Assembly (NCBI GenBank): GCA_030654175.1 | Contig: JAURXZ010000024.1 | Location: 62,001-126,000 of the forward strand | From: Bacteroidia bacterium | GTDB taxonomy: Bacteria > Bacteroidota > Bacteroidia > 2-12-FULL-35-15 | Direction: 5' to 3' | Length of the DNA: 64,000 bases | Shown here: piece by piece, positions 1-5,106 of the stretch | How positions within the stretch are numbered: position 1 is the stretch's first letter | Layout of the letters: each line of letters opens with the position of its first letter | Translations under genes and position numbers: made by a program | Notes under the pieces: model-generated | Told to the model about the DNA's origin: nothing | The model's input: the letters and a program-made list of their open reading frames with translations, nothing else | Databases searched by the model: none

Positions 1-995
1 TAGATGCTTCAGGAACAGAACGTATTGTTGGAAAAAAAATGGGCTGGCAAGACAATACGGTAACCTTTGATACCGCAGCTTCTCTTGCGCATTTTGAAAA
101 CCTAAGGCCAATTACTGAATGGGATAAACTTCAAAGTGACGTTTGGAAAAATAATGCAATAGGACCACAATCGCAAAGCACCATTCATTTTTTAAGACAT
201 GGCTGCTGGTGGTGGCATATTGTATTAAATAACAATACAACAAGCATTGGTGTTGTTTACGACAAAAATATATTGGGGACCCCTGATGCTGAAAAGTTCT
301 TTAACGATTATCTCGAAAATGATGAATTGTTAAAACATATTACACAAGGTGCCACAAGAGGCGCCATCAAACACTTGCCGAAATTACCTTATCTGAGTAA
401 ACAGCTGTATAATGATGGTCTTGTTGTGATTGGTGATTCCGCAGCATTCATCGATCCTTTGTTTAGTCCGGGAATTGAATTTATTTGTCAGCAATCCATT
501 AACCTTACCGATCTGATAACGGACTATTTTAAGAATAATAAAATGAATTATCGCAAATGGAACAGGTACCAAAAAGTGTTTCTTGCTGCATTCAGCGATC
601 GCATTAAAATTTATCAGGACAGGTATAAGCTGATGGGTTCCTACGACCTTTTTTCTAATTGGGTACAACTTGATTTTTTTGGTTATTTCTGTTTCACCAT
701 TTTCCCTTCCGTAGTTTTTCCCGGGCGAATGAAAACACCACCGAGATTTCTTTTTCCTTCCAATCTTGTTTACAAATTCGTTACCAATCGCTACCTTAAA
801 ATAGCGGCACGAAGAAAGTTACAGGGAAGGCTTTCCACAAGTTTAAAGAAACCCGTTTCCTATTCGCATATTGCAATTCCAGATGGTTTCACGTTCTATC
901 TGAAGGTGCCACAGTTATTTTTTATCTGGTTTATCAATTACATGAGAATTGAAATGGATGAGGTTGGATTCATGTTTTTTCCCAAAAAAAAATGA
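1..995 (+). CDS. Flavin-dependent halogenase-like oxidoreductase, C-terminal part (cut by left edge)
   Basis: The reading frame is open from the first complete codon at base 3, so the gene starts outside the window. An in-frame ATG at 39 exists but is internal. The first residues read DASGTERIVGKKMGW; a DASG motif is typical of the FAD-binding fold of tryptophan-halogenase/geranylgeranyl-reductase-like flavoproteins. Further on, GDSAAFIDPLFSPGIEF matches the conserved flavin-site segment GDAAgFiDPlfSsGv of the same superfamily. The tail is basic and aromatic-rich. The catalytic lysine and WxWxIP motif that would prove a true halogenase are not visible in this part, although a WWWHI stretch occurs about 50 residues after the DASG. 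Substrate is unknown. Class assignment is fairly safe; halogenase versus hydroxylase or reductase is open. Confidence 0.75.
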   Translation, partial: DASGTERIVGKKMGWQDNTVTFDTAASLAHFENLRPITEWDKLQSDVWKNNAIGPQSQSTIHFLRHGCWWWHIVLNNNTTSIGVVYDKNILGTPDAEKFFNDYLENDELLKHITQGATRGAIKHLPKLPYLSKQLYNDGLVVIGDSAAFIDPLFSPGIEFICQQSINLTDLITDYFKNNKMNYRKWNRYQKVFLAAFSDRIKIYQDRYKLMGSYDLFSNWVQLDFFGYFCFTIFPSVVFPGRMKTPPRFLFPSNLVYKFVTNRYLKIAARRKLQGRLSTSLKKPVSYSHIAIPDGFTFYLKVPQLFFIWFINYMRIEMDEVGFMFFPKKK

Positions 996-1146
996 ACTTG
1001 TTTTATTTAAGGATTGGAGCAGGAGATTTTTATTATTTTTGTTGAAAGGCTGGTTTTTAATATTAATGCTACCTTAGGGGTTAAAGCGTTAAGCAAAAAA
1101 TGAAATTTAGTTTTCAAATTTACTTCTTAAACTTTTAAAATACCTA

Positions 1147-1638
1147 ATGGATTTTATTGAAAATATTAACCCCGTTTTTTTTGCAACCGCAATTCTGTGT
1201 TCTGCTTCCATTTTTACTGTTGTTTGGTTTCTTGATTCTTTAACACATGGAAAATTGGTGAAGATCGACATTACAGATAAGGAGCTTCAAACACACAGGA
1301 TCATTCTCGCTACCTCTGTTTTAATGGAACTCTCTTTGGTTTTAATGTTTTGGTTTAACGTTGCAATGCTGCCTTTTTTCGCTGCCTTTTTTATTACCCG
1401 AACCGTTCACGAATTTATTGATGAGTTGCATTGGCATACCGACAGGTGTTCCGCTTATGAATCTTTTCTTCATTTAGGAATGTGGATCTCTGTTTTGTCA
1501 AAAACTTTTTTAATGTTTATGTGGGGCTTTTTCACTCAATATAAAGGGTTTACCGAGCTTCATATAGGTTTTTATATCTGGGGGTTATTGGTAGTGGGCA
1601 GTATGGGACTGATTGGTTTGGTTGAGTGGAAACGTTAA
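1147..1638 (+). CDS. Four-helix membrane protein with His/acidic cluster, unknown function
   Basis: I do not recognise this 163-residue protein. It has about four hydrophobic segments (residues ~10-30, 55-85, 110-130, 140-160) and no signal peptide cleavage site, so it is probably an inner-membrane protein. Between the second and third helices lies a dense polar patch with the pattern RTVHEFIDELHWHTDRC followed by ExxLHLGMW. It carries four histidines plus Glu, Asp and Cys, which could bind a metal or heme; that is inference only. It stands alone between the halogenase-like gene and the exported-protein operon, with about 150 bp of non-coding DNA on each side. Confidence 0.65.
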   Translation: MDFIENINPVFFATAILCSASIFTVVWFLDSLTHGKLVKIDITDKELQTHRIILATSVLMELSLVLMFWFNVAMLPFFAAFFITRTVHEFIDELHWHTDRCSAYESFLHLGMWISVLSKTFLMFMWGFFTQYKGFTELHIGFYIWGLLVVGSMGLIGLVEWKR

Positions 1639-1795: not shown

Positions 1796-2392
1796 ATGAA
1801 ACAACTATTGTTCGCTACATTTTTTTGCACTGTATTTATATTTAATGGCGTAACCTATGCTCAGGAAGCTAATGCTGATGCTGCCAAAGATAGAGACTGG
1901 GGCATTGAAGTAGAACCATCCGGATTTTTATTCCGTGGTTATGGCTTACAAGTAACCCGCAATGTTACTAAAGATAACCGTTTTAATATCGGACTTTACT
2001 CAGCTGTTTTAGATATTCCTGATTGGGCAAAAGAAGGAATATTCAAAAATGTTACAAAGGAAACGGATGTGAGATTAGGATTTGAACTTGCATTGGTTGC
2101 GCGATATAAATTTAAGATCGGACAAAAAGAAACTAATCCATATATTGGATTCATTGGAGGTTGGGAGTATTTTGATATTGCTAAACCCTTAGTGCCAAAC
2201 GTAAGGATTTCAACTTTTGTTGCCACTCCAATGATCGGATACGAGATCTATTTATTTAAACAAATGTTGTATATAAATCCTCAAATAAGAGGAGTATTTT
2301 ATTTGGCCCCTGACAGCGATCAACCTACTAGAACAGAAGCGATAAAACCTTTCTTTGCTCTTCCTACACTCTCTTTAGGGATTAAATTATAA
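1796..2392 (+). CDS. Exported outer-membrane beta-barrel-like protein
   Basis: This 198-residue protein starts with a clear signal peptide ending near TYAQEAN (cleavage about residue 22). The mature part consists of alternating aromatic/hydrophobic and polar residues typical of amphipathic strands (LFRGYGLQVTRNVTKDNRF, ALVARYKF, NPYIGFIGGWEYF) and ends in a short strand, LSLGIKL. It resembles small 8-stranded outer-membrane barrel proteins of Bacteroidota. It is the first gene of a tight plus-strand run: the next reading frame begins 19 bp downstream at a TTG, or about 64 bp downstream at the preferred ATG. Ligand and role are unknown; the context suggests work with the exported kinase-like and VTC-like proteins that follow. 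Confidence 0.7.
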   Translation: MKQLLFATFFCTVFIFNGVTYAQEANADAAKDRDWGIEVEPSGFLFRGYGLQVTRNVTKDNRFNIGLYSAVLDIPDWAKEGIFKNVTKETDVRLGFELALVARYKFKIGQKETNPYIGFIGGWEYFDIAKPLVPNVRISTFVATPMIGYEIYLFKQMLYINPQIRGVFYLAPDSDQPTRTEAIKPFFALPTLSLGIKL

Positions 2393-2456: not shown

Positions 2457-4151
2457 ATGAAAAGTGCAGTTTTATTATTATTTCTTTTTGTAAAAATCCT
2501 GGCCCCTTACAATAGCCTAGCTCAGTCTGAGCCTTTGGTACCCATTGAAAGGGGCAGCTTACTGCTAAATCAGCAACCTCAAGTATTAGATTCTTTTGTT
2601 AATAACGGCCGCATAAATTTAAAGTATGTAAGAACTATAGGTCATTTTTTAACTAACAATGACATTACCGTTTACAAAAAAACTGCTATCTCCGGGCGGA
2701 GCAAGGCAACTATCCGACACATTAAGCAACTGATTGCAAAACAGGAAGAAGGCTTTCAGGAAAATCTTCTTGTAAATGATGAAACAAGAGAGATCTTTTA
2801 CGAACTCTATTTGTTCAATGAATCATTGAAACAGAAATCATTAGCAAACGCCCAAACAAAAATGTCCTTTAATGACAAAATAAAGATGGAGGTACACTCC
2901 ATTAAAAGCAAAAGGGGGTTCCGATATAAAAATTCCATCACTGATCATGAAGCAAAAAATATAAACAAAAGTAACCTTCAGGAAGATCCCAAAGATTCTC
3001 CTTTTTGGCATCAAAGCATAAAACAAGTACCACTCGATAAACGATTTGCACAACTTGCACGTTCAAAAAAAATAAAGGCCAAAAAAGAAATGGTTGTGTT
3101 GTTTGATAAGTCCAGCTTAAGTGGATCTGCACCTAAGATCAATGTTCTGGACCTTGATCTTGACAATAAATGGTCGCTCAAATGGGGAGATGAAGTGCAT
3201 ACTGATGTGGTAGGATCACATATTTTTGCCGCACTTGGTTATGATGTTGACCACCCCTATTTTTATGAAGAAAACAAACTGACTTTAATTTTTGATGAAC
3301 TAAAAGAAATAAAAAATAAAGAAGAACTTAAAATTAAAATTAAAGAAATTTATAACATCGACCTGGAACCATTTATTACAACTTATGGTACAGTGACCAT
3401 ACAGATGACCAAAGAGCTTGCTGACTTACAACCCTATGTTGGAAAACAATATGTACGATTTAAAAAATGTGTGCTCGAGGCCCGGCCTGACAGAGTAAAA
3501 AGAATGGGGTCTTTTTTGCCTGGTCTTTTATCCAACGAAGACCGAAGAGAATTACGAGGTGCGCTCCTTGCTCACCAATTTATTGGTAATTGGGATACGC
3601 GCGAACAGAACACCTTGTTGACAACAGTTCACATGGGTAATTATAAGTACAGAATGTCGGCCGTTTTTTCTGATCTGGGAGCGAGTTTTGGAGTTGTTCA
3701 GGGAATATTCCCTCCCGATTTTAAAGTGGGTCTTGTCAACGAATTTCCATGGGAAGTTGCAAGCTGTGCAGGCGGAAAAGTAAAATTAAATAGTAGTATA
3801 AATTCCATTTTACCTCCTTATCAGCAAGCTACCTACCAGGATCTATTATGGATGGCAAAAAAAATAGGCGAACTTGATGGCCCTATGTTAAGAAACATGA
3901 TAAACAAAGCGAAATGGCCTGAACCAATTGCCGAATTATATTTTCACAAACTGGCATCCCGGAGAGCTTCTATACTAAATGCTTTTGATTTAACAGATCC
4001 TCATCCTATCCCATTCGACAAAAATTTAACTATAAAAGTGGATGGGGAATATGTTGTAAAAAACGGAAAGCTTCTTATAGATATTGATAAGGATAAAAAC
4101 CCTGAAAGCTTTTTATCAAAAAAAGGCAGATTGACTAACTATGGCCATTAA
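2457..4151 (+). CDS. Exported protein with atypical-kinase-like catalytic loop
   Basis: I prefer the ATG at 2457 over an in-frame TTG at 2412 because it gives a textbook signal peptide (MKSAVLLLFLFVKIL, cleavage after SLAQ), leaving 564 residues. The first ~250 residues are basic and lack a recognised domain. The C-terminal half contains WSLKWGDEVHTDVVGSHIF, then AALGYD, then HQFIGNWDTREQNTLL, then VFSDLGASFG. The order Lys ... D-x4-N ... DxG-like is what HipA, PI3/4-kinase and Fam20-type kinases show in their catalytic and metal-binding loops. I recall similar NWDxxxxN/sDLGatfG proteins only as uncharacterised exported proteins. The 3' end overlaps the next gene by 11 bp, implying translational coupling. 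A phosphotransferase role is inference. Confidence 0.7.
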   Translation: MKSAVLLLFLFVKILAPYNSLAQSEPLVPIERGSLLLNQQPQVLDSFVNNGRINLKYVRTIGHFLTNNDITVYKKTAISGRSKATIRHIKQLIAKQEEGFQENLLVNDETREIFYELYLFNESLKQKSLANAQTKMSFNDKIKMEVHSIKSKRGFRYKNSITDHEAKNINKSNLQEDPKDSPFWHQSIKQVPLDKRFAQLARSKKIKAKKEMVVLFDKSSLSGSAPKINVLDLDLDNKWSLKWGDEVHTDVVGSHIFAALGYDVDHPYFYEENKLTLIFDELKEIKNKEELKIKIKEIYNIDLEPFITTYGTVTIQMTKELADLQPYVGKQYVRFKKCVLEARPDRVKRMGSFLPGLLSNEDRRELRGALLAHQFIGNWDTREQNTLLTTVHMGNYKYRMSAVFSDLGASFGVVQGIFPPDFKVGLVNEFPWEVASCAGGKVKLNSSINSILPPYQQATYQDLLWMAKKIGELDGPMLRNMINKAKWPEPIAELYFHKLASRRASILNAFDLTDPHPIPFDKNLTIKVDGEYVVKNGKLLIDIDKDKNPESFLSKKGRLTNYGH

Positions 4152-5106
4152 CAGAATTTTAAAAATATTGCTTTTTTCTTTTATAAGCTCCAATATGCTT
4201 CTTGCCCAAGGCACCGAAGAACAAAGGAAGTATGTTATAAAAGATGAGAAAGCGCTGTTAAATTTTATTAATTCATCCGGACAGCTGGAAGGCTTATCGT
4301 TATACAACCACTCCAAATTCACCTATTTTGATCTTTACTTAGATACTCCGGATTTTGATCTTTATAAAAACAAATTGTCGTTGCGATTTCGAAAACGAGT
4401 TTTTAATGATAGCCTTGTCACCTATGGCCTACAATTAAAAAGCGAGATGGAAACCGTTTCAAGTGTACGCATGGAAATTGAAGAAGCACAGCTCGATTTT
4501 TACCGTGTAAAAACTGATCAGGGCTGGATTGAATTACCTAAAATACTGGATATTATTTTTTCCCAGATTCAAAATAACAAAATCGATATCAGTTCAAAAG
4601 AAATGCAGTACGCTCTTTCATCCATTCAAAAGTGGATCCAATTGAATGCGGAAAGCACTATTTCACCTTTTCAAAAAATCGCTTTTTTAAAACTCAAGGG
4701 ATTGGAAAGAGAAAAAATTGCTACCATAAGGCCGGTCTTATTTGGTTCGGAGAAACGCATAAGAAGCCATATTTATATTGACCCTGCTAAAACGATAATC
4801 GAACTAAGGAGTATGCCAATGAACAGTTTAGCACTATCTGCTGTTCCTGATTTTTTTAAAAAGAACAATACCTTTAACTGGATCTTAGAAACATCTGTTG
4901 ACTCTGCTGTTTTCTATTCCTTGTTTAAAACCAATAAAACCGAGGTAGAGATATTTGAATTCGAAGTTGAAAATAAATATTTTCTTCATGAAAAAGGAAC
5001 AGAAATAATGAATCTTTTTGAAAAAAATCTCAAAAGTAATTTTCAAATGGAGAATTTGATGGATTCAAAATACCGTCAAAGCATTAAAAAGTTTTTAGTA
5101 CCTTAA
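4141..5106 (+). CDS. Exported VTC/CYTH-like (triphosphate tunnel fold) protein
   Basis: A signal peptide (MAINRILKILLFSF..., cleavage after LLAQ) is followed by about 295 residues that fit the triphosphate tunnel superfamily. RKYVIKDEKALLNFI sits where VTC/CYTH proteins have their first strand. It is followed by YFDLYLDTPDFDLYKNKLSL then RFRKR, the hallmark 'tyfDt.dl.LY...lslRiR', then LQLKSEMETVSSVRMEIEE, and finally EVEIFEFEVENKY. These alternating charged residues would line the tunnel that holds nucleotide or polyphosphate. VTC-domain proteins polymerise polyphosphate; CYTH enzymes hydrolyse triphosphates or act in thiamine-triphosphate/cAMP chemistry. An exported location without ATP makes a binding or hydrolytic role as likely as polymerisation. 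The gene overlaps the kinase-like gene upstream and lies 24 bp before the ABC ATPase. Confidence 0.65.
   Translation: MAINRILKILLFSFISSNMLLAQGTEEQRKYVIKDEKALLNFINSSGQLEGLSLYNHSKFTYFDLYLDTPDFDLYKNKLSLRFRKRVFNDSLVTYGLQLKSEMETVSSVRMEIEEAQLDFYRVKTDQGWIELPKILDIIFSQIQNNKIDISSKEMQYALSSIQKWIQLNAESTISPFQKIAFLKLKGLEREKIATIRPVLFGSEKRIRSHIYIDPAKTIIELRSMPMNSLALSAVPDFFKKNNTFNWILETSVDSAVFYSLFKTNKTEVEIFEFEVENKYFLHEKGTEIMNLFEKNLKSNFQMENLMDSKYRQSIKKFLVP

Follow-up and report, generated by a model that had tools for sequence, protein, structure and literature searches.

A predicted exported HipA-like kinase family of Bacteroidota and the genes that accompany it

Only a small number of bacterial kinases are known to work beyond the cytoplasm, a setting in which ATP is usually in short supply. 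In some bacteria, CotH genes are found close to VTC-type genes, and kinase-fold AMPylases such as SelO exist. In the passages covered here, a Legionella kinome survey (PMC9758233) and a review (PMC12189002) describe HipA and CotH; HipA phosphorylates glutamyl-tRNA synthetase and is partnered by the HipB antitoxin (PMC9758233). Those passages do not describe the family reported below, but literature coverage is incomplete and an earlier description is possible. A phylogeny of HipA (PMC8262856) mentions neither signal peptides nor the periplasm. Two further groups of proteins bear on what follows. Tunnel proteins of the CYTH type have triphosphates and polyphosphate as substrates (PMC8233210), and a 2017 survey of nucleotide translocases (PMC5381601) recorded NTT and NTT-HEAT proteins of unknown role in free-living bacteria, reporting links to HEAT and cyclic-nucleotide-binding domains; the word kinase is absent from its main text.

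The window, i.e., the whole stretch of DNA analysed, comprises 64,000 nucleotides from a Bacteroidia bacterium, and the gene of interest lies near its left end (Table 1). The reading frame is open from a TTG at 2412, in frame but judged a less likely start than the ATG at 2457, to a stop that ends at 4151. The product begins MKSAVLLLFLFVKILAPYNSLAQ followed by SEP, which by eye and by hydropathy is a Sec-type leader, and a hydrophobic leader also starts the orthologues of the window protein in a 27-member alignment. We propose that the window protein is secreted, belongs to the HipA-like kinase superfamily, and is competent for catalysis, and we assign this full proposal a probability of about 0.6. 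In outline, the gene product is probably an active, exported HipA-superfamily phosphotransferase.

Table 1. Features of the window in and around the predicted kinase gene.
Feature	Position	Strand	Basis or remark
Exported HipA-like kinase gene (putative), 564 aa	2457..4151	+	Stop included; homologues and HipA_2 profile match
Predicted Sec signal peptide MKSAVLLLFLFVKILAPYNSLAQ, residues 1-23	2457..2525	+	Judged by eye; hydropathy peak
N-terminal region, residues 24-204	2526..3068	+	Poor conservation outside window branch; low-confidence helices in model
Glycine-rich loop candidate SSLSGSAPKINV, residues 219-230	3111..3146	+	hhalign alignment
WSLKWGDE with conserved K242, residues 239-246	3171..3194	+	Alignments
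D250, candidate acidic partner of K242	3204..3206	+	48-ORF analysis
GNWDTREQN, residues 377-385, putative catalytic loop D380-x4-N385	3585..3611	+	Aligns to HipA_2 N-x-D-R-x3-N
FSDLGASFG, residues 404-412, putative metal loop D406-L-G408	3666..3692	+	Alignments
Exported CYTH (triphosphate tunnel) protein P0002, 321 aa	4141..5106	+	Pfam CYTH E 1.6e-5
Small exported protein, 198 aa, possibly an outer-membrane barrel	1796..2392	+	No Pfam match

Relatives of the window protein are few in its own class and numerous in a sister class. A copy with 89% identity was the sole match in a scan of genome contigs; it lies in a second genome of the genus, and a lake metagenome assembly labelled Bacteroidetes contains the same sequence. 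A phylum-wide search added a 724 amino acid protein of another class, 26% identical, that keeps WxLK, G-x-E-V, D-x4-N, and SDLG. Searching with a profile of the domain yielded three more close members at 45-57% identity (L006, L007, L008), together with a large number of remote sister-class members, while L009, a match resembling a TonB receptor, was dismissed as chance. The window branch is rare: counting the window genome, it is held by four of 395 genomes and two of 295 in its class.

The original prediction had singled out WSLKWGDE, GNWDTREQN, and FSDLGASFG as kinase-like motifs in the right order, and all three are indeed present in that order (Table 1). They are also conserved beyond chance, as the corresponding segments of the 26%-identical homologue P0003 read WKLKY, GDPDIKDAN, and ASDLGGALG. 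Over the 27-member alignment and an analysis of 48 ORFs, the conserved set was defined as K242, D/E250, D380, N385, and D406. Hence, the lysine of WSLKWGDE stands, but E246 of the same motif varies freely and was ruled out as the kinase glutamate; the acidic partner is instead at position 250, 11 residues before a conserved Gly-Tyr. Intact copies have D or E at position 250, most of the remote ones E, whereas dead copies have A or G. The pentad behaves as a unit: 32 of the 48 ORFs keep all five residues, 12 have lost them together, and only four are partial. Conservation of the catalytic Asp and Asn in an alignment had been named as one point on which the prediction could fall; both are conserved, and it does not fall there. 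K, D, D, N, D, and G408 are all retained in the window copy and throughout the five of its branch, at 45-89% identity.

Scans of the window protein against Pfam, NCBIfam, PHROGs, and PADLOC gave nothing significant. Searches of the PDB with phmmer and with profiles returned only chance matches for the family, and searches of phage, plasmid, and viral contigs found no relatives. The relationship to HipA-like kinases became visible in profile-profile comparison with HipA_2 and HipA_C alignments built from proteins of these genomes. The intact family matched the HipA_2 (PF20613) set with 96% probability (E 4.7e-9, score 70) and the sister-class members alone did so with 94% (E 1.3e-7); for the six sequences of the window branch alone, the probability was 46% (E 2.1e-4, 216 columns), with the lysine, D-x4-N, and D-x-G aligned. 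Reversed profiles used as controls gave E values of 0.2-0.5, and 20 column-shuffled targets scored at most 27.8. The match to HipA_C/HipA (PF07804) was weaker (32%, E 5e-4). Individual members gave weak Pfam matches to HipA_2 (4/27) or HipA_C (2/27), in the N-lobe where they could be located, and SSLSGSAPKINV is similar to the glycine-rich loop SSLGGARPK of HipA proteins. The sequence-profile relationship to the HipA-like superfamily (PF20613/PF07804) is above chance, and the window protein carries the matching residues, i.e., Lys (K242), an acidic residue (D250), D380-x4-N385, and D406-L-G408. At the PF20613 gathering threshold, the window protein has no match, and the best relative scanned singly reached 13.1 bits against a cut-off of 27; by these profile data, the protein is a remote homologue of PF20613 and is not filed as a member.

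The profile-profile link, with lysine, catalytic Asp and Asn, and DxG all in register, supports the earlier suggestion of an extracytoplasmic kinase or pseudokinase of the HipA type. CotH (PF08757), also put forward there, gave probabilities of only 0.1-0.9% against 21 CotH domains, even though the HipA_2 and HipA_C profiles do reach CotH (20-28%), and a Pfam scan of all 27 members found no match to Fam20C or PI3/4-kinases at E up to 1. AlphaFold models made from two sequences (the window protein and its 89% copy) had a pLDDT of 30.5 and 32.5 for the full length and the domain; the order of elements in these low-confidence models (pLDDT ~31) is strand 239-242, helix 252-259, helix 360-376, the D380 loop, two strands, and D406, which fits a kinase but proves nothing.

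The closest neighbour of the predicted kinase gene is the exported CYTH-domain gene, which in the window begins just before the kinase gene ends, an overlap of 11 bp. In five of five window-branch loci (G000, G017, G697, G728, G588), it directly follows the kinase gene on the same strand. P0002 scored 25.3 bits against the Pfam CYTH cut-off of 23.2 and carries ExQxK in place of the signature ExExK; the alteration is found in five orthologues, in which RFR, QLKSE, and RxRSH are conserved, as are other basic and acidic residues, including the basic tunnel residues. A CYTH profile matched no solved CYTH/VTC structure in the PDB. In its own right, the protein encoded at 4141-5106 may be a periplasmic triphosphate or polyphosphate enzyme. 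The 198 amino acid exported protein also neighbours the kinase in G017, G697, and G728, and whether the two are linked is uncertain. Upstream, at window positions 1-1638 and at L080:6521-9639, are genes for a UbiA-type prenyltransferase, a Trp-halogenase-like flavoprotein, and a 163 amino acid membrane protein, a set that mostly recurs near the kinase in related genomes: the prenyltransferase in G000, G697, and G588, the flavoprotein in G000, G697, and G728, and the membrane protein (~163 residues) in G000, G017, G697, and G588. The window genome lacks a TLC/NTT gene, which rules out its use of an NTT.

The sister-class branch has different neighbours. At about 40 loci, an Omp85 barrel gene precedes the kinase-like gene on the same strand; within 2 kb upstream there are 39 barrel ORFs in this orientation and none in the opposite one. 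A lipobox-like site is present in 26 of 30 ORFs outside the clade of dead copies, whereas the dead copies have an ordinary signal peptide. A TLC ATP/ADP translocase gene (PF03219) occurs within 2 kb on the same strand for 24 of the 26 copies with the full residue set, but for none of the 12 that have lost the catalytic residues. The two intact exceptions are G461, a genome without TLC at the threshold used, and G800, where the contig is only 5.9 kb. Six genomes (G285, G289, G477, G845, G829, G815) hold both kinds of copy, and TLC adjoins only the intact one. Among 195 genomes, TLC was found in 26, all of which also have the kinase family; 160 have neither, and in nine the family occurs but TLC does not: six of these contain just a dead copy, and the other three are G309, G461, and G800. 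Naive Fisher tests give 3e-8 per locus and 5e-25 per genome, but these values are overstated because the dead copies are one clade (support 97/91) and the genomes are related; the joint loss of the residues and of the NTT is thus a single event.

Operon-like clusters of Omp85, kinase-like (mostly lipoprotein), and TLC/NTT genes are found at L077, L086, L088-L090, L092, and L095-L097, and further ones at L100-L107, L109, L110, L113-L115, L117, L118, and L121; some of their translocases are fused to HEAT repeats. At L095:7097-8852 (G784), the kinase-like gene is split across two overlapping frames, either a frameshift or an assembly error. The dead copies, pseudokinases that have lost K, E, D, and N, are at L082-L085, L087, L091, L093, L094, L099, L108, L111, and L112, and each, wherever the contig extends far enough, still has an Omp85 barrel gene beside it. 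A calcineurin-like phosphoesterase gene adjoins several sister-class loci. Since NTT-HEAT genes of this class can also lie away from any member of the kinase family, the carrier is not restricted to that family. In two related genomes, on contigs without the kinase family, predicted exported PPDK_N ATP-binding proteins (L127:929-3934, L126:1-2436) lie less than 3 kb from NTT-HEAT genes and may be another exported ATP-using enzyme near a nucleotide carrier.

The mechanism that we infer would begin with Sec export, and the protein would then fold, either at the outer membrane or within the periplasm. K242, D250, N385, and D406 would bind a nucleoside triphosphate and Mg2+, and D380 would move the gamma-phosphate to an envelope substrate, which may be a protein, lipid, or glycan. 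Sharing this compartment, the CYTH protein that the overlapping gene encodes would probably handle the triphosphate or its product. For the distant branch, ATP is the probable donor, and the NTT translocase encoded next to the kinase would bring it into the periplasm. The linkage of intact relatives to nucleotide carriers gives independent support to the idea that the domain uses a nucleotide outside the cytoplasm. However, since the window genome lacks TLC and has the CYTH partner instead, the argument from ATP supply reaches the window gene by homology only. Two further points count against the proposal: D250 is an Asp where most kinases have Glu, and G461 keeps the residues without an NTT. 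A dedicated extracytoplasmic phosphorylation system, with a HipA-type kinase at the outer membrane beside Omp85 and supplied with ATP through an inner-membrane NTT (a part that an exported triphosphate-tunnel protein would play in the window branch), is tentative and rather less than an even prospect.

The main rival accepts export and a HipA-like fold but not catalysis by phosphotransfer: an exported pseudokinase or non-canonical transferase would use its nucleotide site to sense, to scaffold, or to carry out some other transfer (AMPylation, for instance), with a constant role beside an outer-membrane partner. That a whole sister-class clade without catalytic residues is retained beside the Omp85 gene indicates that the fold can serve a non-catalytic role, and the window organism has no evident extracytoplasmic supply of ATP. 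For the window copy, we nevertheless favour a kinase over a pseudokinase, as it and all five of its branch retain every one of the residues in question, and the relatives tied to nucleotide transporters, in this case ATP/ADP translocases, are the intact ones; we regard the pseudokinase as unlikely, at perhaps one chance in several.

Two other readings are less probable still. If the donor of the window branch were not ATP but polyphosphate or a triphosphate that the exported CYTH partner makes or holds, the enzyme would be a variant of the kinase that we propose; the constant adjacency of the two genes at all five loci, the retained basic tunnel residues, and a genome without NTT are all in keeping with this. 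The altered CYTH signature, the failure of the CYTH profile to match any solved CYTH/VTC structure, and the attachment of the remote relatives to ATP/ADP carriers make it improbable. We consider it slightly less probable again that the protein is an ordinary envelope protein, devoid of a kinase fold, whose kinase-like motifs arose by chance or convergence. Single-sequence scans found no significant match to a kinase model and the structure models lack confidence, but chance or convergence would hardly account for a HipA_2 profile-profile match in which every motif is in register and the controls are negative, nor for a motif set conserved in relatives down to ~18-26% identity.

If the exported kinase that we propose is real, linkage of intact copies alone to ATP/ADP translocase genes turns the question of its donor into a concrete, testable hypothesis. 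The same linkage offers a possible role for the NTT carriers of free-living bacteria that PMC5381601 left open, and an extracytoplasmic system would explain some of them as sending ATP out, not importing it. The family thus makes both extracytoplasmic phosphorylation in these bacteria and the origin of its ATP accessible to test.

Compared with described systems, the family is closest to HipA_2 (PF20613), its best profile match, with which it shares, in register, the lysine, an acidic residue placed 11 positions ahead of a Gly, and the D-x4-N and D-x-G motifs; it differs in being exported (as predicted), in its large N-terminal region and insertions, and in its linkage to CYTH or to NTT and Omp85 genes. 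With HipA of the HipBA toxin system (PF07804), it has in common a glycine-rich, SxxGxxPK-like loop and the layout of catalytic motifs. HipA pairs with HipB, whereas the window protein has a signal peptide and no HipB-like neighbour was seen, the adjacent genes being those for the CYTH and 198 amino acid exported proteins on the same strand. CotH and Fam20C, whose targets are secreted or spore-coat proteins, resemble it in conserving the Asp and Asn residues; CotH lacks a DFG motif (PMC12189002), whereas the window family keeps DLG. The NTT/TLC and NTT-HEAT proteins of free-living bacteria (PF03219) belong to the same families as the translocases that neighbour the sister-class kinases.
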